Virus record (IMG/VR): IMGVR_UViG_3300030104_002283
Span: 1 to 57,636 of that record
Origin: a virus
Reading direction: 5' to 3' (one strand)
DNA: 57,636 nucleotides
A model generated the notes under the pieces. It was not told the origin of the DNA. It ran no database searches and saw only the letters and a program-made list of their open reading frames with translations. Position numbers and translations under genes: made by a program. Positions 6,876-56,500 of the stretch are shown here, one piece after another (positions within the stretch are counted from its first letter, which is position 1; every line of letters starts with the position of its first letter).

Positions 6876-7319
6876 TTATACCTCATGCCATTCTTTGCCT
6901 TCAAACAATAAGGCTTCTGCTTCTCTTCTTCTTATCAAACCTTGTAATACTTTACCACCTGCTTTATTCCATCTTTTTATTTGTGCAGGTACTCCATTAT
7001 AATCTTTATTATTTAATACTTTTAACAAAGTAGAGTTTTTTAAATTAGTTGGTCCAAGATTAAATGTCCATGATATAAGAGCATCAAATTGATTTTGTTC
7101 TAAATCTACTTCTACTAAATTATTTACAGCTTCTTCAAATACTTCTACATCTTCAAGTAATAACATATCTGCTCTTTCTTGTGATATTTCCATATCCATA
7201 GTTACACCATGAGTTGAGCCATATCCGATTGTAGGCACTCCTGCAGCACAGTGATACGCTTTAAGCTCACAACCCTCAAACTTTTTAATTAAAGACAAAC
7301 CCTCTTGTGATATTTTCAT
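6876..7319 (-). CDS. Endolysin, GH24-type lysozyme (muramidase)
   Basis: 147 residues, cytosolic muramidase that hydrolyses peptidoglycan at lysis. The triad spacing of phage lysozymes is visible: Glu15 (KKFEG), Cys24 at the Asp/Cys position, and Thr30 (GVPTIGYG). The C-terminal half has the conserved FDALISWTFNLG and RRREAEALLF segments. No signal peptide is present, so it depends on a holin. ATG 7319 was chosen because GGAG lies just before it; longer upstream starts lack one. The preceding holin gene stops one base upstream. Confidence 0.93.
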   Translation of the reverse strand: MKISQEGLSLIKKFEGCELKAYHCAAGVPTIGYGSTHGVTMDMEISQERADMLLLEDVEVFEEAVNNLVEVDLEQNQFDALISWTFNLGPTNLKNSTLLKVLNNKDYNGVPAQIKRWNKAGGKVLQGLIRRREAEALLFEGKEWHEV

Positions 7320-7320
7320 A

Positions 7321-7800
7321 CTATTCTCCTTTGTCGTTGGTGTGAGATGCTCCAAAATAGAACGAAATAATTGCACTTGCGAGTCCTCCTAAATAACCTA
7401 ACACTAAATTAATTAGTGCTTCTGAATTTTGTTCTGGTGGCTGTAGTGTTACTAAAAATATATAACCAAGAAATCCACCTATAGTAAATAAACCTATAAT
7501 TCTAGCTGTCCAATCTTTGCTAAACATACCTCTAGCATTTTGTTTATCAGCTACTTCTAACTTAAATACATCGACATCAAGTTCTTTCATCTGTACTTCA
7601 AACTCTTGTTCAGCTTTTTTAAGTTCTAACATTTGTTCTGGTGTAGCATTTTGAATCGCTTGTTGTATAGATTTTTGGTCATTAGATACACCTAATACTT
7701 CTGCTATTTTACCCATAGCCATTCCACCTAAAGGACCACTAATTGCTGTGCCTAATGTTGGTGCAACTGCACCTACTATATTTTTTAATAAACCTTTCAT
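7321..7800 (-). CDS. Holin-like membrane protein
   Basis: 159 residues. An N-terminal Gly/Ala-rich hydrophobic region (about 8-36) is followed by a charged helix (55-100) and two transmembrane segments (about 108-125 and 135-152) with GLFTIGGFLGYIFLV and YLGGLASAIISFYFG. This layout resembles the three-helix holins found beside phage and gene-transfer-agent endolysins. Immediate linkage to the endolysin supports a role in permeabilising the inner membrane. Confidence 0.75.
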   Translation of the reverse strand: MKGLLKNIVGAVAPTLGTAISGPLGGMAMGKIAEVLGVSNDQKSIQQAIQNATPEQMLELKKAEQEFEVQMKELDVDVFKLEVADKQNARGMFSKDWTARIIGLFTIGGFLGYIFLVTLQPPEQNSEALINLVLGYLGGLASAIISFYFGASHTNDKGE

Positions 7801-7807
7801 AAAACTC

Positions 7808-9562
7808 CTAATATACTGTATATATGTTAATTGGTTTTTCTTTACCTTTTACATAAATACTTTTTAATTCTTTTAATGTTATTGTATCAATAAAGTTTTT
7901 AACATTAATAGTGTTGTATCCTATAACAATATCTTCTCCAACTTCTTTGGTAGAACTTTCTAGCCTAGCAGCAAGGTTGACTGCATCTCCTATAGCTGAA
8001 TAATCAAACCTTGTATTACTACCCATATTTCCTATTACAGCTTCACCAGTATTAATTCCTATTCCTATATCAATACCTAAATTTGCTTTTTGCATTTCTT
8101 CTTTTATTTCTATAGCACATAACACAGCAGATGTTTCGTGATTTGGTAAATCTATTGGTGCATTAAATATTGCCATCATGGCATCTCCAATGTATTTATC
8201 TACCATACCGCCATACTTTTTAACTGCATCAGCTTGTATAGTTAAAGCTTTATTCATAATTTGTGTAACTTTTTCTGGCTCTAACTTTTCTGATAAACTT
8301 GTAAAACCTCTTACATCTGTAAAAAGAAAAGTACAATACTTTCTTTCTCCACCTAGTTTTAATAATTCTGGATTATCTTGTAATTGCTTTACTTGTCTTG
8401 GGTCTAAATAATGTTCAAATTGTTTTTTAATTTGTTGTCTTAATTTATATTGTTCTCTAAATCTTAAATAAAAAGCTATGCTACCTGTTATAAATTGAGA
8501 TATTAAACTCCAAGTAACATCTATTAATAAACCTTTTTGTATAAAGTAATATCCAATACTACCTGTAATAAACATAGATAATAAACTTAATACTATTCCC
8601 CATGTTATTCCAAAATAAAAAAGCACAAACCAAACAATAAGAACGCTTATTATAAATATTAACAAGTTAATACTTATTGCCCAGTCAGGTATATAAGGAC
8701 TATTTTCTATTAATATACTTTCTGCTAAAGCTGTTTGTATTTTATGTGGTTCTAACAATCCAACTGGAGTAGCAATTTGTGGCATTACACCATTAGCAGT
8801 AACACCTATAAAAACAAACTTACCATTTACATTCATTTCTTGTAAATCTGTTTGTGGTGTATCAACCCAACTAATCCACTTGCGACCAAGACTATCTGTT
8901 TTAACTGGTGGTATTCCTCTTATTGATATTTCTGATATACCATTATCATTAGTTTTTATAATATAAGTTTTAACACCAAATAAAGCTTTGTATATTTGTG
9001 TACCAAAACTAGGTATCCATTCGTCATTAGGTGTTTTAACTAATAAAGGTATTCTTCTTACTAATTGGTCAATATCAACGGGAGCAACGGCTAAACCTTC
9101 TAGTGAATTGGAGGATAGTAACGGCAGGTTTTCCTTTACTCCCGAAGAAATTATACCACCATTATTTTTTCCAAGTATAACTGTTCCAGTTGGTTTAGGA
9201 TAATTACCTTTACCATCTTCAAACATAGCTATAACAGATGGTGCATAACCTAAAGACCTTGCAAAACTTTCATCACCACCCATTCTATCTGGTTGTGGAA
9301 AAGATATAACCCAACCTACACCTAAAGCACCTTTACCTATAATATCTAATTGTATTTCTGCTAATCTTTGTCTAGGTAATGGATAACCACCTTCTCGTTC
9401 TACATCTTCTTCTGTAATATTAAGTATTACAAAATTACCTGATGGCTCTGGAGTTTTTATTAAACTATCAAATGTTTTTAATTTAATTATCTCAGTAGGT
9501 GTGCTTTGAAATAATAAAGGTAAACTAAGTAATATAAGTATAGGTAATATTAGTTTCTTCAT
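7808..9562 (-). CDS. CHASE2-type sensor class III adenylate cyclase
   Basis: 584 residues. An N-terminal membrane anchor is followed by a periplasmic CHASE2-like domain (about 25-285), three transmembrane helices (about 290-370) and a C-terminal cyclase domain (about 400-584). The first metal-binding Asp is in FTDVRGFTS (near 415). VDKYIGDAMMAIF carries the adenine-specifying Lys and second metal Asp. DYSAIGDAVNLAARLE provides the adenine-contacting Asp and the transition-state Asn and Arg. All catalytic positions appear intact, so it should make a cyclic nucleotide, probably cAMP. It starts one base after the FecR-like gene and precedes the holin. In bacteria CHASE2 cyclases often pair with FecR-domain proteins. 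Such a gene is very unusual in a phage. Confidence 0.92.
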   Translation of the reverse strand: MKKLILPILILLSLPLLFQSTPTEIIKLKTFDSLIKTPEPSGNFVILNITEEDVEREGGYPLPRQRLAEIQLDIIGKGALGVGWVISFPQPDRMGGDESFARSLGYAPSVIAMFEDGKGNYPKPTGTVILGKNNGGIISSGVKENLPLLSSNSLEGLAVAPVDIDQLVRRIPLLVKTPNDEWIPSFGTQIYKALFGVKTYIIKTNDNGISEISIRGIPPVKTDSLGRKWISWVDTPQTDLQEMNVNGKFVFIGVTANGVMPQIATPVGLLEPHKIQTALAESILIENSPYIPDWAISINLLIFIISVLIVWFVLFYFGITWGIVLSLLSMFITGSIGYYFIQKGLLIDVTWSLISQFITGSIAFYLRFREQYKLRQQIKKQFEHYLDPRQVKQLQDNPELLKLGGERKYCTFLFTDVRGFTSLSEKLEPEKVTQIMNKALTIQADAVKKYGGMVDKYIGDAMMAIFNAPIDLPNHETSAVLCAIEIKEEMQKANLGIDIGIGINTGEAVIGNMGSNTRFDYSAIGDAVNLAARLESSTKEVGEDIVIGYNTINVKNFIDTITLKELKSIYVKGKEKPINIYTVY

Positions 9563-10753
9563 TTAATCACTTTGTCTTATAGTTATTACAGAATCTCCAC
9601 CACCATTGATTTTTACGATATTAGATATGCCATCTTGTATAAAAATAACTGTATATGAACCATTTGTATTAATATCTAATTTTACACTTTCACTTACACT
9701 TCTTTGTAATGTAATTATATCGCCTTGTATCAAAGTTGTAATTTGAGTATCAGGGTCTTTACCTAATAAAGTTCCAACAATTTGTGTTGATGTTGCTTCG
9801 GCTAACTGGTCTTCTTCTTCTTGTATATCTAATTCATCAAGAACATTTAATAAATCTTCTAAAAAATTTACATCTAAATAATTAATATCTAATTCTGTAA
9901 ACTCTAAACTATCTTCTTTAAGATAATCTTCTGCAAGATAATCTATATCTAAATCATTAAAATCTAATACACTATCTGTTTGTGAAGTTGTACTTTCTTC
10001 TTCTATTACATTTTCTTCTTTAGGTGGTGTAACAATTAACATATTGTCAATAATGTCTAAAGATAAATCTAATATAACAGGTTTAGTTGGAGCAGATTCA
10101 AATACACTAACTGTAGTTGCTTCATAGGGTTTGTTTAATATTACTGTTCCCATAGCTGTAACTACTTCTATTTCTCCACTAGAAAGTCCTAAAGCATCAG
10201 GTAATAAAATTATAAGGCTACGCCCTAGTTCATCAACTGTAGCCGTAAAATCAGTTCCTCGTATAGCTATATTTGCAGTTGGTGTTTTTAATTCTATGTT
10301 TTGTTTATCTATACGATTAAGATTACCCGTAATAAATCTAGCTGTACCAAGCCCAAAAGTAAGAGCCATTTTTGCTTTGCTTGGGTCTGGGTCATATATA
10401 TATTCGTCAATAAGTAATTGACTATGCTCTGTAAGTTTTACAGTAGAATCATCAAGAAATGTTATTGCCATTCTGCCATTAGTAGTAATAGCTTCGTCAT
10501 TACTTTGTATAGCAAATTTTAAATCTGCTTCATAAGATTTATCTCTTACTATTTGGGCATTACCATTTAGTTCAGATATATCTCCAATATCAACAGCTTG
10601 TGCTTGTACCTTGGTCGTTTTGAACAACGCACACAGTACCACTATTGCCAACAGATGTAATTTTAAGCCAATCTGAAACCAATGTTGAACTTTGTGTAAC
10701 ATTAAATGTTCTGCTGTTTCCTGTTTGGTCAAGATAGAAATATCCACCTGCAT
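9563..10753 (-). CDS. FecR-domain periplasmic protein
   Basis: 396 residues from ATG 10753; a start at ATG 10702 would put a signal peptide (KLHLLAIVVLCALF, ending near VQAQA) directly at the N-terminus and may be the true one. The FecR signature TPTANIAIRGTDF lies near residue 160, after strands typical of FecR. Residues about 255-315 are very acidic and Leu/Asp-rich. The C-terminal 60 residues form a beta region. The 5' end lies inside the curlin-like gene (112-164 bp overlap depending on start). The pairing with a CHASE2 cyclase suggests a periplasmic sensory or scaffold role. Confidence 0.85.
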   Translation of the reverse strand: MQVDISILTKQETAEHLMLHKVQHWFQIGLKLHLLAIVVLCALFKTTKVQAQAVDIGDISELNGNAQIVRDKSYEADLKFAIQSNDEAITTNGRMAITFLDDSTVKLTEHSQLLIDEYIYDPDPSKAKMALTFGLGTARFITGNLNRIDKQNIELKTPTANIAIRGTDFTATVDELGRSLIILLPDALGLSSGEIEVVTAMGTVILNKPYEATTVSVFESAPTKPVILDLSLDIIDNMLIVTPPKEENVIEEESTTSQTDSVLDFNDLDIDYLAEDYLKEDSLEFTELDINYLDVNFLEDLLNVLDELDIQEEEDQLAEATSTQIVGTLLGKDPDTQITTLIQGDIITLQRSVSESVKLDINTNGSYTVIFIQDGISNIVKINGGGDSVITIRQSD

Positions 10754-11306
10754 ATCCGCTTCCTGTAAAGTTTACTGTGTTGCTATCTCCATCTACATCT
10801 ACATAGTTGGTTGCACCATCATAATTAATATCAAAATCAAATGTATTGCTATCGCCTTGTATAATCCAATCTAAATCTAATGTAGCTGCCAATGCAGATG
10901 TACCTGTATCTAAAGTAAAAGTATTAGAATTACCTGTTGTATCTACATTGTAATTAGAACTATCAATACCATAAGTATCTGTTGGGTCGCCTTGAATTGT
11001 AAATGTATTACTATCTCCATCAAATTCAAAAAATCCTGTAATACTATCTCCAAGAATATCTCCTAAAAATTTATTACTATTACCTATTTGATTAATGTCT
11101 AAAGTAAGATTTAAACCATCTAGGTCTAATGCTGTTAATGTTCCAGCTACAGAATTTAATCCGCCTATAATATTAGAATTACCTAATTGTTCTAAATCTA
11201 TATTTGCTGTTGCACCAGATTGGTCAACATATATTTCATTATCAGCCCCGTATATTGTCAATGCACTCAGCATCACAATCAGGCTCATTAATTTTAATTT
11301 CATCAT
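10590..11306 (-). CDS. Curlin-repeat secreted amyloid-like protein
   Basis: 238 residues. A signal peptide (MMKLKLMSLIVMLSALTIYG, then ADNE) is followed by about eight imperfect repeats around the core G(N/D)SN: LEQLGNSN, INQIGNSN, FDGDSNTF, TTGNSNTF, IQGDSNTF, VDGDSNTV, DQTGNSRTF and VGNSGTV. This matches the Gln-x-Gly-x-x-Asn pattern of curlin CsgA/CsgB strands, although several repeats carry Asp where curlins have Asn. Two Cys lie near the C-terminus. ATG 11306 was chosen because the longer frame begins with TTG. It lies just downstream of CsgG, its likely exporter, overlapping it by 65 bp. Confidence 0.85.
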   Translation of the reverse strand: MMKLKLMSLIVMLSALTIYGADNEIYVDQSGATANIDLEQLGNSNIIGGLNSVAGTLTALDLDGLNLTLDINQIGNSNKFLGDILGDSITGFFEFDGDSNTFTIQGDPTDTYGIDSSNYNVDTTGNSNTFTLDTGTSALAATLDLDWIIQGDSNTFDFDINYDGATNYVDVDGDSNTVNFTGSGYAGGYFYLDQTGNSRTFNVTQSSTLVSDWLKITSVGNSGTVCVVQNDQGTSTSC

Positions 11307-12096
11307 ATTCCCAGTAACCTCTTTCAATTCCTGTATAAATTATATTTAAAATACCTTTTTCTACTGCTTTTTGCAAAGCTATAGAAACACTTTCATTTTT
11401 TGCAATACCACCTTCCACTTCTACTAACTCTGTTCCAGTTTCAATAAAGCGAAAAATGTCTTGTGAAACATTTGTAGAGATAATACTTTTAGATACTAAA
11501 GTTTCTATTAATACTTCTCCAGTAGATACCGAAACTAATCTTAATGATATAGTAACTGAATCTTCTCTGTATTGTTTGCTAGTACCTATTCCTAAATATC
11601 TAGCACCTAATCCTCCAGATTTATTATTAGCTTCATAACTAATAACTCCACCTTCTATGATTAGTCCAGCAAATAATAAGGGTTTCATCTTATTATCTTC
11701 TTTAAATTCTTGTCTTGTGCTTCTTATTAACTGTCTTTCTTTAGTTAAGTTATCTAACCCAACTCTTTCTACTACTGTAAAAAAATTTCCATTTGATGCG
11801 TGTTTTAATGCTCTAATTAAAAAAGCTTCTGGAGCTTGTGTTATAGCTGTACTAAATAAAGCAAAAGAACTATTACTTTTTCTTTGTCCTGTTAAATCTC
11901 TAAAACTATTAGGATATATAGCTACTGAAGGTTTAATTTTTGCAGCAGGTAAATTTTTAAGTTCTTCAGATTGTAAATCTAATATTGCACTAGGTTCGAT
12001 ATTTTTTGTTAATGATAAATCTTTATTTTCATTTAATACAGCACAGCTAGAAAGTAAAATTACCGACAGGCAAAGAAATCGTTGTAATATTTCCAT
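11242..12096 (-). CDS. csgG: CsgG-like outer-membrane curli secretion pore lipoprotein
   Basis: 284 residues. The signal peptide ends in a lipobox (LLSSC, Cys18). Strong family segments follow: FRDLTGQRK, FSTAITQ, ERVGLDNL, GGVISYEANN, SGGLGARYLGIG, LRLVSVSTGEV, FRFIETG and GIERGYWE near the C-terminus. E. coli CsgG forms a nine-subunit outer-membrane channel. Its eyelet Phe56 is matched by Phe81 here, while the Tyr51 and Asn55 positions differ, so the constriction chemistry may be altered. It overlaps csgF by 50 bp and the curlin-like gene by 65 bp. A CsgG homologue is certain from sequence; function inside a phage infection is not. Confidence 0.96.
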   Translation of the reverse strand: MEILQRFLCLSVILLSSCAVLNENKDLSLTKNIEPSAILDLQSEELKNLPAAKIKPSVAIYPNSFRDLTGQRKSNSSFALFSTAITQAPEAFLIRALKHASNGNFFTVVERVGLDNLTKERQLIRSTRQEFKEDNKMKPLLFAGLIIEGGVISYEANNKSGGLGARYLGIGTSKQYREDSVTISLRLVSVSTGEVLIETLVSKSIISTNVSQDIFRFIETGTELVEVEGGIAKNESVSIALQKAVEKGILNIIYTGIERGYWEYDEIKINEPDCDAECIDNIRG

Positions 12097-12532
12097 CTTG
12101 GTCCCGTATAGTTAATGTTATTATTCCATCAACAACTTTGTATGTAATTGTATTTCCCTCTAGTGTTAGAGTTCCTTCTGTGCTTGGTGTTTCACCAAAT
12201 AAATTTTCTACAAGTTGTCTTGATAGTTGTGCGTAAATTCTTGATTCTAAATTTCTTATAAACCTAGCTAGTGTTGTATTTTCTTTATCTCTTTCTATTT
12301 GTTCTTGTAAAGCTTTTATTTCAGCTTTAAGTGCTTCTTTACGATTAAACTCTTGATTTTCAATAGTTAAATAATGTGCTGATGTACCTATTCCACTAAA
12401 GCTAGGATTTTTAAATTTAAAAACTATTTCATCTGCCCACAAAGGATTTGTTAAAATAACAAGAAAAAAGAAAATACTAAGCAATCCTGCTATTCTATAA
12501 ATCCAAATATTGTCAGTCTTTTCTCTGGTCAT
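12047..12532 (-). CDS. csgF: CsgF-like curli assembly factor
   Basis: 161 residues. A signal peptide (hydrophobic 13-29, cleavage likely after LWA at 33) is followed at once by VFKFKNPSF, the CsgF N-terminal motif that plugs into the CsgG channel in E. coli. A coiled middle region (65-110) and a C-terminal beta region (SLPVGNF) follow, as in CsgF. The first residues lie within the 3' end of the preceding membrane protein (20-bp overlap). It precedes csgG directly, as expected for an accessory subunit of that pore. Confidence 0.93.
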   Translation of the reverse strand: MTREKTDNIWIYRIAGLLSIFFFLVILTNPLWADEIVFKFKNPSFSGIGTSAHYLTIENQEFNRKEALKAEIKALQEQIERDKENTTLARFIRNLESRIYAQLSRQLVENLFGETPSTEGTLTLEGNTITYKVVDGIITLTIRDQDGNITTISLPVGNFTF

Positions 12533-12863
12533 CTCTATTCGCTTTTGCTATTTTATTGCTATCTATAAGTTGTGGTATTCCTAAAATAGTTTTAATTAAA
12601 GTGTCTTGTCTTATAATTTCATTATCAAGACTTCTTATTCTATCTATTAATGCTACCAAAATACCATGTTGAGAATCAAGTTTTGTTCCGAGTCTTTCTT
12701 CTAATGCTGCTATCTGTCCTTCTACTTTTTCATCAACAGTATCTAATTTAGTTTCCATGCCATCAACAATACGCATAATTAGTTTATAAATAAACCAACC
12801 AAGACCTAATGCAGCAGCAATAGGAAAACCAACTTCTTGAATTAAAGTAACAGCCGATTCCAT
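12513..12863 (-). CDS. Membrane-anchored coiled-coil protein, possible holin
   Basis: 116 residues with one N-terminal transmembrane helix (about 8-30, GFPIAAALGLGWFIYKLIM), then a long amphipathic coiled coil (35-90) and a charged tail. The arrangement resembles small single-span phage holins or BhlA-type proteins. It overlaps the SNase stop by 1 bp and csgF by 20 bp. It could belong either to lysis or to the curli-like cassette. Confidence 0.55.
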   Translation of the reverse strand: MESAVTLIQEVGFPIAAALGLGWFIYKLIMRIVDGMETKLDTVDEKVEGQIAALEERLGTKLDSQHGILVALIDRIRSLDNEIIRQDTLIKTILGIPQLIDSNKIAKANRDDQRKD

Positions 12864-13243
12864 TAGTAATCACCCCAAACTTTTACTTTTTTTCCTCCAT
12901 AATATTCAACAGCATGACCTTCTTTAATTAATACTTGGCATATATCTCTGCCATCTTGTGTATAAGGTATGCCTAATATACGACCATATTTGCCTTTACC
13001 TAAAGATTTAATTTTAATATCTCCAATACAAAGTTCTTTTAATCTTTCTTTAGCAGCAAGACCTAATTTTTTTTCTGCTAAATCTCTAGTTCTACTTTCA
13101 GGTGTATCAATACCTGCAAGTCTGACACGCTGTTTATGAAGCTTTACATCAAAACCTAAATCAAGACAACAATCAAATGTGTCTCCATCTACTATTCTTT
13201 CTAGCGTAGCATTATAAACAAACGCATCAGGTGATTTAGCCAT
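12863..13243 (-). CDS. Staphylococcal-nuclease-like (SNase) protein
   Basis: 126 residues forming a single SNase OB-fold domain. Catalytic residues are visible: Asp19 and Asp21 in VDGDTF, Arg41 with Asp46, Thr47 and Glu49 in RLAGIDTPES, and Arg88 in YGRILG. It should hydrolyse DNA or RNA with calcium. No signal peptide is evident, so it probably acts in the cytoplasm, perhaps in host nucleic-acid degradation. Start ATG overlaps the previous stop as TAATG. Confidence 0.9.
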   Translation of the reverse strand: MAKSPDAFVYNATLERIVDGDTFDCCLDLGFDVKLHKQRVRLAGIDTPESRTRDLAEKKLGLAAKERLKELCIGDIKIKSLGKGKYGRILGIPYTQDGRDICQVLIKEGHAVEYYGGKKVKVWGDY

Positions 13244-34622: not shown

Positions 34623-35624
34623 ATGAAAGCAAAACAATTAGAAAAAAGCTTAGAGAAGTTAATCTCTATTAAACAGCCCTGTTTCATATGGGGCGGTGTT
34701 GGTGTGGGTAAATCAGAGATTGTCCACAAAGTAGCTAAAGATATGGGCTATAGGATTGAAGATGTAAGAGTTGCATTGTTAGACCCTGTAGACCTTAGAG
34801 GTGTGCCTAGTGTTGAAGATGGAAGAACTGTTTTTAATCCGCCTGTATTTTTACCTACTGATGAACAGCCTAAAACATTGTTGTTTCTTGATGAACTTCC
34901 GCAAGGCAGTCCATCTGTACAGAACGCATTGTTTCAGCTAATCAAGGATAGAAAACTTGGCGAGTACACATTACCTAAAGATACTGTAATAGTTAGTGCG
35001 GGTAATAGAGTACAAGACAAGGCGGGGGCTAACAGAGTTAATACCGCTTTGGGAGATAGGTTTGTTCACTTGAACTTAGATGTATGCCATCAAGAATGGA
35101 TTGACTGGGGCATTAAAACTAAGAAGATAAAACAAGAAGTATTATCCTTTATCTCTTGGCAAGGCGAAGATTATTTATATCACTTTGATAAAAATGCTTC
35201 AGTCAATGCAACGCCTAGAGCATGGGAATATACAAGTAATGTATTGGCTACTGACCCTGATAAAGACATAGAGCAAGAACTTTATGCGGGTATTATTGGC
35301 GAGGGTATAGCCCCTGAATTTATAGCATTTGTTAGAAGATTTAGGAACTTACCTAGTGTTGATGTTCTGTTAAAAAATCCTGAAGATATTTTACAAGACT
35401 TAGAACTTAAATCAGACATGATTTATATGATTGTTGGTGTTCTAGCAAAAAATATGAATAAGGATAATATCCAAAAGTACTATGAATTTCTAAGAGATAC
35501 GCAAGATATTCAAGATGAGTTTTTAGTTATGGCTATGACTATGGCTACAGCTAGAGATGAAAGCTTGAAGAAAACAAAAACATATATTGATTATGAAATT
35601 GATTATCAAGATATTGGGGCTTAA
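34623..35624 (+). CDS. MoxR-type AAA+ ATPase
   Basis: 333 residues. Walker A GGVGVGKS (24-31), Walker B LLFLDE (86-91), sensor-like TVIVSAGNR (near 122-130). ATP-driven chaperone that usually works with a VWA-domain partner, encoded two genes downstream. Its substrate in the infected cell is unknown. Confidence 0.85.
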   Translation: MKAKQLEKSLEKLISIKQPCFIWGGVGVGKSEIVHKVAKDMGYRIEDVRVALLDPVDLRGVPSVEDGRTVFNPPVFLPTDEQPKTLLFLDELPQGSPSVQNALFQLIKDRKLGEYTLPKDTVIVSAGNRVQDKAGANRVNTALGDRFVHLNLDVCHQEWIDWGIKTKKIKQEVLSFISWQGEDYLYHFDKNASVNATPRAWEYTSNVLATDPDKDIEQELYAGIIGEGIAPEFIAFVRRFRNLPSVDVLLKNPEDILQDLELKSDMIYMIVGVLAKNMNKDNIQKYYEFLRDTQDIQDEFLVMAMTMATARDESLKKTKTYIDYEIDYQDIGA

Positions 35625-35636
35625 CAGCCCCTTGTC

Positions 35637-35655
35637 TATTAACCCATTAATATTT
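35637..35655. repeat. TATTAA-N4-TTAATA dyad, site 4
   Basis: TATTAA-CCCA-TTAATATTT, directly before the RBS AAGGAG of the next gene. Confidence 0.7.
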
Positions 35656-35666
35656 AAGGAGAAACT

Positions 35667-36548
35667 ATGGCTCAATTAAGAGACAAAGCATTATTGATTG
35701 AACTTCATTTGAAGAAATGGAGTGGAGTAAAAACTGATAAATCATTAAGAGATGAATTAGCTAATAATCATTCTATTGATGAGACTAGAATTTCAGTCAA
35801 CAAAAAACTAACTAACAGCCCTATCTTGAAAAAAATCAAAAAGATTGATGGCAAGATAAGAACTGAATGTATCTATAGCGGGGCGGGTTATAGCGGTTAT
35901 TGTTTGGCTTGGGATAATCAAGGTACTTATCTATTACCCATTGAATTAAAAGATAAGTTTGAAAGAGACTTCGTTGGTTGGCAGAACGAAAGAGAAAAAT
36001 TAGTAAAAGATTTTGTTAAACAATATGACAATATTATTGCAGAAGCTAAGACTGATTTAGGAACTACTTTTAATATTGATGATTTTCCTAGTAGAGATGA
36101 GATAGAAGATTTATTTGAGTGTAGCATCTTAAAGAAACCTATCCCATCAAGTAATGATATTAGAGTTAATCTTCCCGCCAGTGAGATAGCAGAGTTAAAA
36201 GCAAATGCTAAAGCTGAAGAAGATGCGAAGATGCAAAAGATAACTGGGGCAGTTGTTGATAAGGTTCAAGGTGTATGTAAACACTTTGCAGATAAGATTG
36301 ATAGCGGAGAAACATTTAGAGATAAAACTGTTGATAAGCTTATTGAACTTTGCGAAGTGCTACCCGCATTGAATATAAATGGAGATGCAAATATTCAGTC
36401 AGCACATCAAAAAGCTATGGATACTTTTCATGGTAAAGATATAACAGCAGATAAAGTTAGAAATGATAAAGAGTTAGCTAAAGAATTATCTAATACAGCT
36501 AAAGATATTGTTTCTGATTTAGATACTAAAGGGGGTTATTTTGACTAA
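35667..36548 (+). CDS. Unknown protein between MoxR and VWA genes
   Basis: 293 residues, helical and charged, with WSGVKTDKSLRDELANNHSI and a long coiled region (KLVKDFVKQYDNIIAEAKTD). It may be a DUF3150-type phage protein, but I am not certain. Its place in the MoxR-VWA operon suggests a linked role. Overlaps the next gene by 8 bp. Confidence 0.6.
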   Translation: MAQLRDKALLIELHLKKWSGVKTDKSLRDELANNHSIDETRISVNKKLTNSPILKKIKKIDGKIRTECIYSGAGYSGYCLAWDNQGTYLLPIELKDKFERDFVGWQNEREKLVKDFVKQYDNIIAEAKTDLGTTFNIDDFPSRDEIEDLFECSILKKPIPSSNDIRVNLPASEIAELKANAKAEEDAKMQKITGAVVDKVQGVCKHFADKIDSGETFRDKTVDKLIELCEVLPALNINGDANIQSAHQKAMDTFHGKDITADKVRNDKELAKELSNTAKDIVSDLDTKGGYFD

Positions 36549-37743
36549 CGATATTGATAAAAAAGCAAAAAACATAATGACTAAAGCTAGGGTTCATTTG
36601 TTAAAAAATAATCCTTTTTATGGAAAACTTGCTATGGATTTAGATTTTGTTGAAAGCAAAAAGTTTGACACTATGGCGGTTGATGGACAGAGAATATTCT
36701 ATAACCCTGACTTTGTGCATAAGATTACTTTTCTTGAAACAGTTGGAGTGATAGCCCATGAGGTACTTCATGTTGTCTTTAAACATCATTTGCGTAGGAA
36801 CGACAGAGACCCTTTCTATTGGAATGTTGCGGGAGACTATATCATCAATTACATTTTAAATGATGAGGGCTTTATGCTTCCTGAGGGTGGCTTACTTGAC
36901 TATTCTTACAAGGGTTCTACTACCGAGAAAGTATATGAAGATGTCTATAAAGAAAGCGATAAGCAAGATGCTAATACTGATGGCGGAGACAATACATCTG
37001 ATAGTGAAGATGATGAAAGAAAATCTTTATCTAAAAGAATGTGGGGCGAAGTCATAGATGCAGTCATTGAAGAAGTTGAGGGTGTATCTAACGAAGAACA
37101 AATAGAAAAGTTAGAACAAGAAATAAACGCTAAAGTCATTGATGCAACGCAAGTATCTAAGACTATGGGTAAAGGTGGAGATGCTTTTAAATCTATTATG
37201 GATATGGTTAGAACGCAGTCTGTATCTTGGGAAGAAGTGTTAGGTAATTTAATATTAGATAAGACTACTTCTAACGATTATAACTTTAATACACCTAACA
37301 GAAGATATGTATATCAAGATATGTACTTACCATCTGTTGAGAAAAAGCCTAACCCTAAAGGTGTGATTGCTCTTGATATTAGCGGGAGTGTAGATAAAGA
37401 AACTATGGCTATGATGCAAGATGCAGTGAATAACATTGTTCCTGTTGCTAACTTTGAAGAACTAACAATTCTTTATTGTGATGATTGCATAAGGCAAGTT
37501 GATACATTTCATGGTGGAGAAGAAGTTGAGTTGGATTATATTCGTGGTGGCGGAACAGACTTTGAGCCTGTATTCAAATATATAGATAAGGAACTTGATA
37601 ACGAGGTTGCTTTTCTTGTTTACCTAACTGATGGGTGGTGTTGGGATATACCTAGTGAGCCTGAATATCCTGTGATATGGGCGACAACGGACACTGACCA
37701 TTACTTTAAGGATAAATTTGGAGAGGTTGTTTATGTTGAATAA
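36541..37743 (+). CDS. VWA-like protein with N-terminal zinc-peptidase-like domain (DUF2201 type)
   Basis: 400 residues. TTG start chosen since GGGGG lies five bases upstream; an internal ATG at 36577 is the alternative. HEVLH (73-77) resembles a zincin motif. A charged acidic linker follows (about 140-160). The MIDAS motif DISGS (279-283) and later YLTDGW mark a VWA fold. The partner of the MoxR ATPase, likely forming a metal-dependent protein-remodelling complex. Confidence 0.82.
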   Translation: MTNDIDKKAKNIMTKARVHLLKNNPFYGKLAMDLDFVESKKFDTMAVDGQRIFYNPDFVHKITFLETVGVIAHEVLHVVFKHHLRRNDRDPFYWNVAGDYIINYILNDEGFMLPEGGLLDYSYKGSTTEKVYEDVYKESDKQDANTDGGDNTSDSEDDERKSLSKRMWGEVIDAVIEEVEGVSNEEQIEKLEQEINAKVIDATQVSKTMGKGGDAFKSIMDMVRTQSVSWEEVLGNLILDKTTSNDYNFNTPNRRYVYQDMYLPSVEKKPNPKGVIALDISGSVDKETMAMMQDAVNNIVPVANFEELTILYCDDCIRQVDTFHGGEEVELDYIRGGGTDFEPVFKYIDKELDNEVAFLVYLTDGWCWDIPSEPEYPVIWATTDTDHYFKDKFGEVVYVE

Positions 37744-37785: not shown

Positions 37786-38046
37786 ATGAAAAATAAGTAT
37801 TTAATAATTAGCAAAAGAAATGGAGACTTAGGTATTAACAAAGATGGATTTGTTCAATATCGTAATTTTTCTGATGAGCCATTAGTGATGGTGGTTGAAG
37901 AAGAAACTCCATTCACAAAACAAGATGCATTTAATGAGTTTGCATCTATGGTAGAAACTACAGAAGAAAGAAAATTAAATATTAACCATTTTAATATTTT
38001 CAGTGGGGCTGACATTGATGATATTAAATATTACTGGGGGGCTTAG
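37786..38046 (+). CDS. Small phage protein of unknown function
   Basis: 86 residues. ATG 37786 preferred over an upstream GTG because AAGGAG is five bases from it. KYLIISKRNGDLGINKDGFV and MVVEEETPFTKQDAFNEFA. No family recognised. Confidence 0.6.
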   Translation: MKNKYLIISKRNGDLGINKDGFVQYRNFSDEPLVMVVEEETPFTKQDAFNEFASMVETTEERKLNINHFNIFSGADIDDIKYYWGA

Positions 38047-38047
38047 A

Positions 38048-38743
38048 ATGAATAAAGAAAAACTAAAAAAGATAGCAGACAAGTTTGTTATGGAAAGAGA
38101 ACAAGAGCAGTTGGAATATCCTGTTGAGGATTATTCCGCAGACAAAGTTATTCTTTATCACGGAACTAATACAGATAACCTTGATAAGATACTTGAAGAT
38201 GGGCTGTATCCTAGAGGAAACAACGAGGGTAATTGGGAACATACCATACGCAGTAGAAATGATATGGTATATCTAACGAACTCTTACGCAGTTTACTTTG
38301 CTATGTGTTCAATACCTAAAGATAGCAAGGCAAGTCCTGTAGTCCTAGAAGTAGAGGTTGATACAAAAAGTCTTTACCCTGATGAAGATTTTATGGAACA
38401 AGCCACAAGAAATAATGCTATGTGGCAAGATTATTTTATGTCTATTGGACATGAAGATATGACAGCTAGAACCGAATACTTTAGAGATAACATATCTGAA
38501 TTTCAAGATGATTATACTAACAGTTTAAAGCATCTAGGTAATGCCTGTTATTTTGGGGAGATTAAACCTGAAAGCATCAAAAGATATTCTGTCTTAGATG
38601 TTGGTAAAGTTTGGGAACATTCTGACCCGACAATAACTTTAATGAATTATAAAATTTTAGGTAGCAAATATAGAAAGCTATCCAAAAAATTAATGTGGGA
38701 AGAACCCCTATCTATTAACCAAGTAATATTTAATAAGGAGTAA
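38048..38743 (+). CDS. ADP-ribosyltransferase-like protein
   Basis: 231 residues from ATG 38048. The segment LYHGTNTDNLDKILEDGLYP (36-55) matches the start of H-Y-E-type ADP-ribosyltransferase folds (His38), followed by VYLTNS (74-79) as the second motif. The third catalytic Glu cannot be placed with confidence. It may modify host proteins early in infection. The frame overlapping upstream of this ATG is not needed. Confidence 0.65.
   Translation: MNKEKLKKIADKFVMEREQEQLEYPVEDYSADKVILYHGTNTDNLDKILEDGLYPRGNNEGNWEHTIRSRNDMVYLTNSYAVYFAMCSIPKDSKASPVVLEVEVDTKSLYPDEDFMEQATRNNAMWQDYFMSIGHEDMTARTEYFRDNISEFQDDYTNSLKHLGNACYFGEIKPESIKRYSVLDVGKVWEHSDPTITLMNYKILGSKYRKLSKKLMWEEPLSINQVIFNKE
38713..38731. 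repeat. TATTAA-N4-(T/G)TAATA dyad, site 6
   Basis: TATTAA-CCAA-GTAATATTT, one mismatch in the second arm, within the end of the ART-like gene and just before the next RBS. Confidence 0.55.
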
Positions 38744-47546: not shown

Positions 47547-47565
47547 TATTAACGCTTTAATATTT
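47547..47565. repeat. TATTAA-N4-TTAATA dyad, site 11
   Basis: TATTAA-CGCT-TTAATATTT immediately after, and touching, the stop codon of the giant polyvalent gene. With site 1 it flanks the two-gene right-hand part of the late operon. Confidence 0.7.
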
Positions 47566-50500
47566 ATCTTACTACAGCTTTGTCTCCCAAGCCTTGTAAA
47601 TATTCTTTTCTTCTTCTCATTATTTGTTCTGCTCTTAAATAATCATTTTTTTGTTCTGCTATGCTATCTAATCTAATTCTTTTTTCTTCTGAAGAAAGAG
47701 TTGAACTATTTATTATTGATGCTTCTGCGGTTCTAAATTCTTTTAATTCATCAGCGACTTTTTGTAATTCTTTTTGCAATCTTTTTAAATCTCTCATGTA
47801 TTCTATTTTGTATTCATCTGTTAAACCTTTTGCAAACTTGTCTCTTTTTTCTATGTTATCTTCTATTACTCTAAATGTATTTATTGTGTCATCTACATCT
47901 TTCTTTAGATTATAAAATTGGTTTTCATAATTACTTCCCTCTTTTGGTAAAAGAAATCTACCTATTACTGGAAGTTGGTCAACGCCAAATTTTACTCTTT
48001 CCGCATCTGTTAAACCCTCTCTTAAAACACTATCTGTTGCTATCATTAAATAACTTCCTAATGTTCCTGTATAACCTCTAACAAGATTTTCTACATACAA
48101 AGGGCTAATGTTTAACTCATCTCCTATTACTTTAGAAAGAGTATCTGTTTGTGGTCTATAACCCGCATCATCAGTTCCTTTTAAATAGTCAGGCACTATT
48201 TGTCTGCCTGTAAACAAATCATAGTTAGCAAAGTTTTCTACAAGAGGGTCAACAGCCGTTGGTAATGTTAAAGAGAAAGTATGTCTTGTCATTTTTTTAA
48301 TTCTTTTAGCAACATCTTCTCCTGCTACATCATCTGCAAAATAAGATGTAAGCCGTTCGGGAACAGTCATACTAATTAGTCCGACTTCAAAAGGTTTAGG
48401 TATTACTAATGGAAAACCGCCTGTTATTTTTTTGCTTCCGGGTATAATTAAATAGTTATCTTTTATTTCATCAGGTGCTTCTTCATATTCTTCTGAATCT
48501 CTAACTAAAAAATAATATCCGGGCATCATAGCCATTATTGTTGCTAGTCTTAACCACACACTTTTTGTTCTTTTTGATGGACTTAAACCTCTACCTATTC
48601 CATATCTTCCTGTTAAACCTCTATAAAAAACATCTAGTCCTTGTAGCCTAGGATTTAAAAACATTGTCATTTGTTGATATGTTTGAAAAGCTTTATTGTT
48701 ACCACGCCTTGTAAAGTTTAAAACTTCTAATGCTTGATAAATTGCTTCAGCTTCGTTGCCTGTTCTTTTTAATGTATCTTTATATACAGCAACTCTAGTA
48801 GCAGCATCTGTTATAGCTGTACCTTGTCCTAGTATATCCCATAAACCAGTTACTAAATCTATAGGAAACATATAAATTTTTTCTGCTGTTGGTCTTTCAC
48901 TTTTAAAAGCATTTTTATAGTAACCATCAATAAGACTTTGTGTGCTATCTATTTCTCTTATACCTTTGTCATAGCCTGTTATTATTCCTGCATTTTTTAA
49001 TTTAACAAACTCTTCTGGAAGTCTGCCGGTAATCATTCCTTTAGCTATCCTAAAAGTTTCTGCTACTGAAGAAATCACTGGTATATAATTAGCACCACTT
49101 AAAGTATAAGCAGATAATGAATCTCTTAATATTTGTGCAATCCAAAAAGCAGGAGCTCTTGTTATTAAATCACTAACAAATCTTTTAGTTCCTCTTGCTA
49201 TATTCATAAGAAGATTCATAGGTGCATAATCAGCTTCTGACATTACATTCATTGAATAATATAACATTGGGTCATCTATTTTAAAGTTTGTATTTTTTCC
49301 TTTAACTCTTATAGTAATTACATCTGGTCCTTTAACATTACCTTTAACTTGTTTAGCTACTTCTAAATCTATAAGATTACGCATTACTCTATTAGCTGCT
49401 ACATTTTTCATACCTAAATTTATAGCTGCTCTTAAATTGTTTGTAATGCCAGTAATAGGGTCAACAATATCTTTTGTTTCACTACCTTTAGCTTTTTGAA
49501 ATGGAGTTATAGATAAACCTTGAAATATTTTTGGTCCTTTAAATCCTTCCATTCCTTCTAGCGGTCTATAAAAAGGAATGTAATCTGAATTTGCTAACCA
49601 TGTTTCTGCTGTCTTTGCATCTAATACACCAGTATCAACTAAAAATTGAACTGTATGTTCATTAGTTCTATTGTACTCATCAATCATAGTTTGTACTTCA
49701 GGATAATCTTGTAATACTTGTTTAGCTTTTTTTCTATCGGCTGCTGTTACTTTTACTTTCCTACCTTCTTTATTAAATCTTGTTTCTCTTTTAACTCTTT
49801 GTACTGCTTGGAAAGCCCAAAGTAAATTAGGATTTTTATAAGCTGGTGCAAATATATCAGCAAAAGGTAAAACAGGTTTACCATCTATTTGTGATATATC
49901 AGTTACATAAGTGTATCCTTTATCTTTATCATAACGAGGAAAACCTCTTATGAAAGATTGCATAAATATATCTCCTGACCTATCAGAAAAATATAAAGCT
50001 GCACCTGCTGACATACTAGCAAGTAACATTTGGTCTCCGTATTTATTTTTTTTACCTGCTTTAACATCTGTTAATGCTAATCTTCCATACCTATCTGCTA
50101 TTTGTTCTCTAACTTTCATACCAAATTCTTTGGTAGCATCAATAGGTTTAAAGCCTTCTAATACAAGTTGACCAATAGTTTTACTTTCAATAGTGTCATC
50201 TCTTACTGTTAAATTTTCTATTAACTCTTCAGCATTTTGATTTAAAGGATTTTTATTTTTATTAAATGAATACTTTAATTTAATATCATTTGGTATGTCA
50301 TTAATAATAGAATCTACATCTGCATTAGTTTCAGATGTACTATTTTTAATTTCTTTTTGTGCTTCTATTGCTGCGGATACAGCACTAGGCGATGCATTAG
50401 TATTTATTACAGGAATTAAACCTGCTGCTATAGAGTTTTGTTCTTGTTCTTTTGCAGTTTGGATATTTTCTTTATCTTGTTCACTAAGTTCCGGTTGTTC

Positions 50501-53500
50501 TTCCGAGCTTCCTCTTCTGCTTCTGCTTCTATTTCTATCAACGATTCTATCGTCCTGAAATAATTGGGCGGTATCTTCTTCGACAATTTCTTCTCCTAAT
50601 TTTTTAGTGTTATTAATATAAGTAAAACCAACATTAGGTGTTGCTGTTCTTTTTACATAATCTTTTAATGCATTGTAACTATCTTTTACTTTATTATCTA
50701 TTGATACTAAATAATCAACAGATACAAACCTTCCTGTTTCACCAAATCTAGTAATAGCTCTTACTATAGCTTGATTTATATTAGCATCTGGATAAACAAT
50801 ATCTACTTTATATCCTCTGCTTTGCAAATCTTGCATTATATATTTAATTTTACTTATATCTGGTTGCCTACGATTATTAGTTTTACCTGCAACTTTAGGT
50901 ATTATTATATTTGCACCTTCTTCTATAAATTGTTTTTGAATTTCAGCAGCAATATATTTTGAAAATTTATGTGTAGCATTAGCTCCTATACCATTTTTAT
51001 ATTCAGGCATTTGTTTTTTAGCATCATCAGCATCAACTATTGCATAACCTTTTCTTGCAGCTATATTTTCAGCAAATGTTGACTTACCTGTAGCTGGTGG
51101 TCCAATTATTATGACTGCTTTTTTATCGTATTTTAAATTACCTTTTGCATATTCTGTGGCTATGTCTGTTAACTCAGGAATCATTTCATTCATTCTTTTG
51201 TTTCTTTGAGCTTCAGTTAAATTATCATAAACATCAGGTATAGCTAATGCTTCATTTTGCATAGCTAACATAGCTGGGTGATTTACTAAAGCATACATAT
51301 CATCTGCATTTATATTATCATTTTGATATTGCGGTTCGTTTGCTAACAAAATTAAATCTGCTTTTGCATCTAACAACTCTTGTCTAGTTAAAGTTTTTAT
51401 TTGCTCTTGTGGAACATTAAAATTTCCAGATGTTATAGTTTGAGTATCACCTTGTATTATTATTCTATCTCTTTGAATTTTATTTACATCTTGTAAGTGT
51501 GTAGTTAAAACTTGTTTACCTGTAGTATCTCCATAATCATCTATTAAAAAGTTTGTTGGTATTAAAAGTTCTTGTTCTCTTATATAGTTATATCTATCGG
51601 CATATAAATTATTTGCATCACCAAGCATAGACTCACCCCTATATAAAGCGTTCATATTTACTGCTATAGCTTCTTTAGGTAAAAGATATTTTTTAACATT
51701 GTAGCCATACTTAGCTATATCTTCTGGTCTGCCTTCTGCTCTAAGTAATTGTCTTCCAAATTCTTCTAATGTTACATTTGGTTCTATTGTTCCATCTTGT
51801 TTTCTTTTGTAATAAAGTTCCTCTATTCTTTCATTTCTTCTTAGTAAATTTTGTCCAAAAGATTCTGCTATAAATTTATTAGTTGTTGTAGGTATTAATT
51901 GATAACTGTCATCTATACGACTTCCTCTGTACACAACTATTTCTTCAGGAAATAATTTTATAGATTCTTGTGTAACAAAATCTATACCATCAGAAATTTC
52001 TTGTGCTTGTACTACAGATAAATTTGGAAATCCAAAACCATAATGAAACAATCCTTGATTTTTTCTATTGCCTGTTAATTGTTTCACAAAAGCTTTAGCT
52101 CCTAAAGTCATTAATGGTGCTATATATTCTGAACCTTCTCCTCTTCCATCTTTTAAAAATTCTTTTATAGGCGGTGGTATTGATGCAACAGTTCCATATA
52201 AGTTTCTAAAGTATCCTTCTAATGTAGGTGCACCTGATTGTTCTTCTAGTGTTGCTTTTACATCATCAATTAATCTACCATTTGTTTCTCTTAAAGAGTA
52301 TTTTAAATTACCCAATTCAGGCGGGTCTTCTACAAAAGATGTTGAGACTGTTTTTTTATTATCATTTGATTTTACTAACAGATTTGGATTATTAGTATTT
52401 TCTAAAACTAAAGTTTTATGTCTTTCAGATAATTCGTTATCACCAAATATATTATTTAATTTTTGTGTAATGCTTGAACCATCTCCAGTAATATATTCAG
52501 GTTTTTGACTAAATATAAAATTAGAACCTAGTAATAATGGATTTAATAATATAGCTTGTGGTTTAAATAAAACAGGAGTTATGTATTGGTCGTATTCATT
52601 TTGTTTATTTGGTCCTACATTATTGCCTATATATTTTTGGTATTTTTGTTGAGTTATAAATGGGCTTTCTATTCTTTTACTTGCATCATTTATATTATTA
52701 TATACAGTTAAAGTATCCATACCTTTAGCTACATCTGTTTCTCCTATTGCAAAACCGACATAATAATCACTATCTGAAAGTTTTCTAAATTTATATTCTG
52801 CAAATGTAGCTTTACTATTTGGTGTTATGTTATTTGCTTGTAAATATTCTTGTGTTGTTGCAAATAAAAGTTGACTACTTTTTGCAATTTTAAAATCAAG
52901 GTTATTATAATTTATATCATTAAAATTACTTGTTTCTCTTAGTTTATTATTTTTATCTTTAATTATATTTGTTAAAGTTTTTTGAAAACCATCTAACTTT
53001 ATTAAAGGATTTGTAGCATTATTAACTTGTCTTTTATAAACATCTAATACTATATTTTGAATATTTGTATCTATTACAGGACTCCATTCTCTAAATTTTC
53101 TATCGGTTTCAAATGGTCTTGTATTACCTATTTGTTCTTCTAGTTTATTTTCAATTTGTTGTTCAGTTAAACTAAATGCAAGACTTGGCTCATCAGATAC
53201 TGGCGGTTTAGGTTTAATATTAAGAGGTGTTGATTGTTGTAACTGTTGTAATTCTTGTGTAGTTCTTATTGTTCCTCTTGGTCTAGCTGCTATTTCTCCT
53301 GTTACAGCAGCTTCTAAAATATCTCCAGCTGATTTATATTTAGTTTTAAATACAGCGTTTGCTAATCCTTTAAAAAAATTAGATGTTTTTTGTAATGCGT
53401 TTCTAGGTCTGCCAGTTATTTTTTTTGGATTATTAATATAATCTTCAAACATAAAAGCTATTGCTTCATCTACAAAATCAAATTCACTGGTATATCCCGG

Positions 53501-56500
53501 TTTACCTTCATACCTGTCTAAAGCTTCTTCGTAATAAGTTTTACCATCTTTTCTTATTTTAGTTTTAGCAAAATTTTCTAAAGCATTTATTTCTTGTGCC
53601 GTAAATAAATCAGCTTGTCTTAAAGCGTGCCAACTTTCATGTCCTAAAGTTTGAGATATATTTTGTAAAAACTTTTTAGCTCCATTTTTTTCAGATAAAA
53701 CATTTAAGTCTGCTTTATCTAAAGATAAAAGTATTTCATTTGCTGCTCTATCAAATACACCATCAGCTTGACTAAAATTTATATTATCTCTATTTTTTAC
53801 TCTATCTAAAAAAGTAGTAAATTTTAATTTAGTTTCCGGTAAATTAAGTTTATCTGATAACTTTATAATTTCTTGTTGTACTGTTTCTATTGCTTCATTT
53901 AAACTTGTTTCTACTAGCGGTCTTAAACTTCCATCAAAATTATATTTTCTATTAGAAGTACCTGTAAATTTAAAATCGTTATCTAAATAACCAGCAGTTA
54001 CAAATGTTTGTCTTAAATTTTCTGCAGCTTTTTTATTTAAACCTGTTGAGTCTTGTATGTTTTTTATAGAAACTTTTTTGCCCACATCTATTTTTTCTAA
54101 GCCTTCTAAAGCTATTGAATAATCATTTATGTTGTAAGCTGTAGCACTTAAATCTAATAATTTTGTTTCTGTATTTGCTTTGGGTAGTCTATTAAAAAAA
54201 GAATATAATAATCTTTTTTGAGGTAGCCCCATTTTATTTATATCTGTTTCAGCTACTAATCTATTTGCTACATATTTAAAAGCATTTGAATCTACAGTAT
54301 CAATTATGTTTAAGTCTTTTAATAAACTGTTAAATGTTTTTTTAGAAAAAGACTTTTGTTTAACTTCGCTAAAATTATTTTGTTCGGTTTGATATTTTAA
54401 AACTTTATTAAATTCTGTTGGAGTTAAAAATTCTTTTAATGTATTTGCATTTACTAATGGATTAAATTTTTGAATCTCTTTTATTTCTGTTAAAGTTTCT
54501 TCTGATATATTTAAAGTTTTTAAATCGTCAATATGTATATCTAATAAATAAGAATTATTTATGTTATCTACAAAATCTAATATTAAATTATTATCTGCAT
54601 CTACATTTTGTTCTATAGCTTTTTCTTGCGACCATTGAATTTCTGCTATCATATTAGAACGCTTTTGCAATTCTGTTAAAACATCTACAGCATATTGTTG
54701 GTCTTTATATCTAGCAACTTCATTTTCATTTAAGTCTGTTATAACAAAATCACCATTTTCATCTGGTAAAATATTTCCTTGTTTATCAAAACGACTTTTA
54801 AAATAATTATTACTTTCTACACCAGAATTTTTTTCTATAATTCTTACAATATTAAAATTATTATCTTGTAATATTTGGTCAGCTTCTAATACTGCAGGAG
54901 TAAAACCTGTATAATTTTTAAAATTTTCTTCTTGTTCAAAAACTAATCTTTGTGCTTCAATAGAAATTTGTGCTGGGTTTGCATCAGGATTTAATTGTTG
55001 TATTCTTTGAAACTCTTTTTTTATTTTAGCTTCTATCTCTTTTCTATATGGGTCCTCTACTGGTAAACCATTTAATTTATCTCTATAATCTTTAACTGCC
55101 CTAATTCTATCTTCATATAATTCTTTTTGTCTTTTTGATTTATTAGTTGTATAAGCAGAAGTAAGTTGTGCTACAGGCACTTCAACAACTGAAAATCCAA
55201 ACTCTCCAACAACTTCTAAAGCAACATCTCCTATTCTTATTTGCTCTCCTTCTTCTAAAGTAGAAAGTTGTGCAAAGTATTCTCCTGCTCCACCTAATGT
55301 TCCTTGTAATGGAGCTTGAACTAAACTATTAATTAAATGTCTTGATGCATTATCTTTTATTGTATCTTTTGCAAATATAGTTCCTCTTGATGGAGCTATA
55401 ACTTTAGGAGCTAATTTAAAAGCTGCAGCATCAAACGCACCAATAAAGACTCCTCTTTTTATTACATATTGTCTAAGTCTTTTTCTGTTATCGTCTTCAT
55501 TTAAAAAAGCTACAACAGCTTTTTCATCATTTATATCTACACCATTTTTTCTTAAAAACTCTGTAGCTGAATATACAGTATCTACTGAACCAGAAGCTAT
55601 ACCTGTAGCTATAGAACCAGCTGTATAACTTCTTGTTAACATACTTGTGCCAACACCTGCAGATAAAGAAATACCCATTGGTACCAAACTAGAAGCTACA
55701 GTTTGTTTCACGATGCCAGTAAAATCAGATAACAATATATCTACTGCTTCTTCTGTGCTTTCAGCTTCTGCAAATGCTTTAAATGTTTCAGAAGTTTTTA
55801 CATTTTGTTGTTTACTTATTGCACTAGCTATTTCTTCATTAGCTATTTCTTGCGACCTTAATAATCCAAAAGGGGGTATTCTTTTACCATCATATATAAA
55901 ATCCATTGGGTAAGTTCCATACAAACCACCATCAGTAATACCACCATATTCTCTGTTTCTATATTCTTCTTCTCCTATTTTGCTAATTCTTTCTAAATCT
56001 ATTTTTGTATCTTTGTCTGTTTTATTACCTAGTGTATAAGGAGTTATTGTGCTTATATCAACACCATCGTATTTTCTTCCGTAAATTATTTGTTGTAAAT
56101 AATCTATTCGTTCTCTGTCTTCTTTAGTTTTATTTACTTTATTATTTATTTCTTGTAGTTCTTTTTTTATTTTTACTATAAGTTCTTCATTTCTAATTTT
56201 TTCTTTTTGAAAAGCTATTTCACCAAAAAATTTTTGTGCACCTGATTCAGTTATAGTATCAGTTACTCCTGTTTCTTCTCCAAAAAAAGATGGACTTGCT
56301 TCTTTTTCTTCTTCAGTAAATTTTCTTTGTGGACCTTGTGTAGCTCTTTTATATATGGAAGGTATTAAATCTGTTGCTACATATTTAATATTTTCTAAAC
56401 CTTGTGTTATTGCAGATGTATTTAGACCGGGCATAGGAGAAAAATCTCCAACTCCTAATGCAGAAAGTGCAGCTAATTTATCTCCTGCAGAAACATCATC

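Follow-up and report, generated by a model that had tools for sequence, protein, structure and literature searches.

What does a phage gain by carrying the secretion pore of a bacterial amyloid system together with an envelope sensor and a nucleotide cyclase? The question is posed by a 57,636-base virus record, analyzed here over its whole length (the window), in which the minus strand at 7808–12532 carries five genes in a row: csgF, csgG, and those for a curlin-like protein, a FecR-domain protein and a CHASE2/class III cyclase. The likely hosts, SAR11, rank among the ocean's most numerous cells, and the module is widespread in their phages. Sequence and structure matches bear out the preliminary description of five consecutive genes with an intact CHASE2-type cyclase, and show its reading of a curli-like secretion, amyloid and cyclase cassette to be sound as anatomy (Table 1). 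Genes overlap at the cassette junctions by up to ~110 bases, the FecR gene reaching into the curlin gene at its 3' end, while the FecR and cyclase genes abut without overlap. Judged by its anatomy, the cassette appears to be a curli-type (type VIII) secretion module carried by the phage, and its position suggests that these are late genes. Promoter-like sites in the region fall below the shuffled count, and terminator-like sites are in excess (eight, versus 2.4 in shuffles). Rfam finds no RNA family in the window, which thus lacks the glutamine riboswitch reported for Methylophilales phage Melnitz.

Table 1. Genes of the cassette and its flanks in the window
Feature	Position	Strand	Evidence or remark
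SNase-domain nuclease, flanking gene	12863..13243	-	PF00565 E 8e-14
116-aa protein, N-terminal TM helix + coiled coil	12513..12863	-	phrog_18771; first cassette gene
CsgF-like, curli pore cap/chaperone	12047..12532	-	PF10614 E 6e-19
CsgG-like outer-membrane lipoprotein pore	11242..12096	-	PF03783 E 3e-49
Curlin-like secreted repeat protein	10590..11303	-	motifs, phage-curlin alignment, predicted fold
Secreted FecR-domain protein	9563..~10702, exact start uncertain	-	PF04773 E 1.4e-9
CHASE2 periplasmic sensor + TM helices + class III adenylate cyclase	7808..9562	-	PF05226 E 8e-24; PF00211 E 5.5e-20
Holin-like membrane protein, 159 aa; flank, outside cassette	7321..7800	-	phrog_1544, no assigned function
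Endolysin (phage lysozyme), flanking gene	6876..7376	-	PF00959 E 1e-48

Two hallmarks of curli or type VIII secretion, homologues of the CsgG pore and of CsgF, are present in the window. The CsgF-like protein retains FKFKNPSFSG near its N-terminus. The CsgG-like protein has the lipobox LSSC and is 40%–46% identical to the CsgG proteins of Pelagibacter phage HTVC008M and Melnitz; a profile of the three phage proteins matches the E. coli CsgG structure with an E-value of 8e-62. The curlin is the weakest of the five gene assignments. Its match to the Pfam Curlin_rpt model is below the cut-off (E 0.004), and two of 27 relatives match at all. The protein has a signal peptide, six GNSN/GDSN motifs and a C-terminal Cys pair; the expected number of G[ND]SN motifs in shuffled sequence is 0.05, and none of 5,000 shuffles reaches six. 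It shares ~30% alignment identity with HTVC008M and Melnitz proteins annotated as curlin, and its AlphaFold2 model is all-beta (pLDDT 77), with "Curlin associated" phage proteins as the best viral matches (TM 0.7). A Foldseek search of the model against the PDB gave nothing at E <0.001. For the same model VIA-align listed folds of the beta-helix and SufB/D-like kinds (top Z 17.1, rmsd 3.6, 199 aligned), which we read as a generic beta-solenoid; no curli structure was among the matches listed. An E. coli-type N22 secretion signal was not seen by eye in the window curlin. HTVC008M encodes a second curlin-repeat protein, gp018 (locus L002:10638-11963), in which a PA14 domain is fused to curlin repeats. 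This fusion suggests that pelagimyophages have a curli subunit of adhesin-like character; the window cassette showed nothing equivalent.

Partial forms of the operon had been reported by Zaragoza-Solas 2020 (PMC7029224) and Buchholz 2022 (PMC9004378). Wittmers et al. 2022 (PMC9599517) describe CsgF, CsgG and CsgA/B in HTVC023P-type podophages, with one or two "histidine kinase" genes always preceding csgF and with FecR after CsgA/B; behind FecR there is often another curlin gene plus an adenylate cyclase. The same arrangement is given for pelagimyophages. The preliminary description had taken the linkage to a FecR/CHASE2 cyclase to be unknown. It was in fact published in 2022 for the same phage group, and the genomes of HTVC008M and Melnitz show it too. 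The module is therefore real, conserved and already published, and the window is one more example of it. Set against the Wittmers module, the window shares the phage group and the order HK–csgF–csgG–csgA/B–FecR–(csgA/B)–AC; it differs in having a single curlin gene, in showing no kinase where the "HK" is placed and in a FecR that lacks the anti-sigma part. HTVC008M and Melnitz have the same gene order as the window at roughly 30%–46% protein identity; their cassettes differ from that of the window in a second curlin-repeat gene, which lies between FecR and the cyclase, in carrying the TM gene twice and in genome position. Melnitz has been described as without csgA and csgB (PMC9004378). Contrary to that description, it has two annotated curlin-repeat genes.

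The "HK" position deserves particular attention. A TM/coiled-coil gene lies directly upstream of csgF in 74 of 74 testable viral loci, in one copy or sometimes two, and within our phage collection it is found in HTVC008M and Melnitz only, both carriers of csgG. Its place and its copy number make it very probably the "histidine kinase" of PMC9599517. A kinase assignment finds no support: family members have one TM helix and a coiled coil, and no HisKA or HATPase_c domain was found in 23 of them (85–116 aa) at E-values up to 0.1. The mismatch points to the published annotation and not to a different module. The FecR protein also differs from what its name might imply. Its predicted fold matches FecR/PupR-type signaling domains (E 3e-5), and the protein consists of a signal peptide, the FecR domain and a low-confidence C-terminal region, in which the idea of curlin-like repeats was dropped when profile comparison gave no support. 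By inspection and Pfam, an N-terminal anti-sigma domain is absent, because the protein starts with a short stretch and a signal-peptide-like segment before the FecR domain; a role as anti-sigma regulator is rejected by this architecture. Users of the published model should note these corrections: nothing found here marks the "HK" as a kinase, FecR by its architecture is not an anti-sigma regulator, and Melnitz has annotated curlin-repeat genes.

Conservation was assessed in 80 viral loci (the best CsgG matches, and so biased to close relatives), to which we added reference phages and a small number of phage-like contigs from genome bins. By the preliminary description, scattered remnants alone in relatives would have refuted the idea; what we find is a highly conserved gene order. 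CsgF is kept in 74 of 74 testable viral loci, and curlin and FecR in 59 of 59 each. An intact cyclase on the same strand is present in 40 of 45. Of the other five loci, L084 has no cyclase, while the gene is split in L088, in fragments in L055, shortened in L025 and inverted in L071; the cyclase is the most dispensable part of the cassette. For the six genes, pairwise omega against those close relatives whose orthologues could be aligned is mostly 0.04–0.4, values to be read with the caveats that gene overlaps depress dS and that the figures for divergent TM-gene copies in L009 and L011 are unreliable. All six cassette genes are under purifying selection. That the cassette is decayed cargo without present function is very hard to credit: the five loci with a broken, truncated, inverted or missing cyclase would fit such decay, but the other five genes are never missing where testable, and omega is well below one. 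Between the window and locus L005, synonymous divergence is 0.06–0.17 for csgF, csgG and curlin (10590–12532) and 0.56–0.61 for the TM gene, the cyclase and the holin-like gene; the low values may reflect either recent exchange of this core or constraint from overlapping genes. Cassettes also occur on contigs in Maricaulis- and Pelagibacter-named bins (L084, L086, L208 and L209), some with phage lysis genes; these probably come from phages and ended up in the bins along with their hosts or by accident.

SAR11 is the likely host of the window phage, because its terminase and portal are closest to those of HTVC023P-type pelagiphages (54%–57% identity for the large terminase; 41%–42% for the portal, against HTVC023P/027P/023Pt). 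Phage DSL-LC04, whose listed host is gammaproteobacterial, is about as close to the window as the HTVC023P-type phages. For host functions we used 147 genomes from the order of a Pelagibacter bin (Pelagibacterales).

The phage cyclase keeps its catalytic residues. Those in the window are D416, K456, D460, S522, N529 and R533; both metal aspartates (D416 and D460), K456 and R533 are kept in 49 of 49 viral relatives and N529 in 47, the usual Asn being replaced by Ser in Melnitz and L092. Class IIIb cyclases have Ser or Thr at the second specificity position, and here the 49 relatives have Ser (33), Thr (14) or Asp (2). The window pattern is that of a class IIIb-type adenylate cyclase, from which activity is predicted, and the nearest solved chains include CyaB and other adenylate cyclases. 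Another explanation is that the enzyme rewires the host late in infection via cAMP and CRP. The preliminary description raised altered host cAMP physiology as one possibility, a similar proposal, by analogy with E. coli CsgD, stands in PMC9599517, and the conserved catalytic residues and their resemblance to known adenylate cyclases agree with it. Against it, none of the 147 Pelagibacterales genomes has a class III cyclase, ten have a cNMP-binding domain, all weak (one that was read is an acyltransferase/GDSL protein and not CRP), and the window phage has none. The idea is weakened, since neither the sampled Pelagibacterales nor the phage has a recognised cAMP reader; the usual cAMP–CRP route in the inferred host is not supported. 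We regard this explanation as improbable, with the proviso that the host is itself inferred and another could have a receiver. CHASE2 proteins do occur in 27 of the 147 genomes (about a fifth), but we rejected them as host equivalents of the phage cyclase: the two that were read (L211 and L213) are CHASE2-SpoIIE phosphatases. A single genome among the 147 has CsgF, and the 3-kb contig that carries it resembles a phage fragment. A cyclase in a host group without a recognised cAMP reader turns its role into a sharp question.

Bacterial genomes offer a partial view of where the module came from. The csg operons of E. coli and Pseudoalteromonas have CsgF, CsgG and curlin repeats in common with the window. 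No FecR or class III cyclase was detected within ~10 kb at ~80 bacterial curli loci, a limited sampling of ~75 CsgG genome loci (mostly Gammaproteobacteria and Bacteroidota) and five alphaproteobacterial ones, searched with viral-built models that could miss distant relatives; a bacterial ancestor with all five genes was thus not found among them. Alphaproteobacterial CHASE2 plus class III cyclases have a FecR neighbor, as in the window, in four of 30 sampled loci, which unlike the window were not seen linked to curli genes. Because the bacterial curli loci have no FecR or cyclase while FecR adjoins CHASE2 cyclases in these four, the data suggest a fusion of two bacterial modules, either within the phage lineage or in some donor that was not sampled.

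What, then, might the assembled cassette do? Our main reading, to which we give a probability of about one half, is that a curli-type pore puts the curlin-like protein on the infected cell while FecR and CHASE2 monitor the process. CsgG and CsgF would form an outer-membrane channel during infection, and the channel would export the curlin-like protein onto the cell surface, where it could alter stickiness or block other phages; a surface amyloid or a role in superinfection is a reasonable expectation. FecR and CHASE2, on the periplasmic side, may act as a pair that reports the state of the envelope or of secretion to the cyclase, a pairing supported by the four alphaproteobacterial loci. The cyclase product would act on a not-yet-recognised receiver, which is proposed because no CRP-type receptor is recognised in the probable host. 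That curlin is present wherever testable implies that a substrate accompanies the pore. If curlin is displayed, solitary SAR11 cells would gain a new surface during infection. Several points count against this reading: the subthreshold Pfam score and missing N22 signal of the curlin, the absence of CsgE given in the literature, the failure to find a cAMP receiver in host group or phage, the poorly modeled FecR C-terminus, and the observation of Buchholz et al. that Melnitz-infected cells showed no clumping (PMC9004378).

The flanking genes invite a different explanation, in which CsgG and CsgF are a gated pore for lysis or membrane depolarization that times the release of progeny, leaving the other genes as passengers or regulators. 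Such a pore was proposed for Melnitz (PMC9004378). The cassette lies beside holin-like and lysozyme genes in 16 of 29 fully testable loci, and in 23 of 33 when those with the upstream side only are considered; some relatives of the 159-aa gene are annotated as holin or adjoin an endolysin, and the family of the invariant TM gene (phrog_18771) has weak holin-like matches. With the models used here, however, the HTVC008M and Melnitz cassettes are not beside recognised lysis genes, the curlin conserved in 59 of 59 loci is unexpected for a pore alone, and the annotated curlin-repeat genes of Melnitz run against the premise of the proposal. We consider a lysis pore unlikely.

CsgE, the gate, is absent from the phage module according to the literature, and an open CsgG channel might instead let larger molecules through to the infected cell's periplasm, a nutrient-uptake idea raised in PMC7029224 and PMC9599517. 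Uptake has no need for CsgF, curlin, FecR or cyclase, yet all are conserved, and it seems distinctly improbable. A bolder version of events is that the virus imports an entire envelope-sensing second-messenger circuit (FecR, CHASE2 cyclase and receiver) and couples it to an amyloid pore, in a host without class III cyclases or CRP. This version is quite unlikely on present evidence; if true, the circuit might sense pore assembly or attack by a competing phage and adjust the infection.

Three other regions of the window merit mention. A PARP catalytic-domain match at 38003–38743 is weak and below cut-off. At 34623–37743, a MoxR-like AAA ATPase, a DUF3150-like gene (below cut-off) and a DUF2201 metallopeptidase/VWA gene adjoin one another. 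A 3,053-aa protein encoded at 47564–56725 combines LPD38 with a zeta-toxin-like P-loop domain and is probably a polyvalent virion protein.
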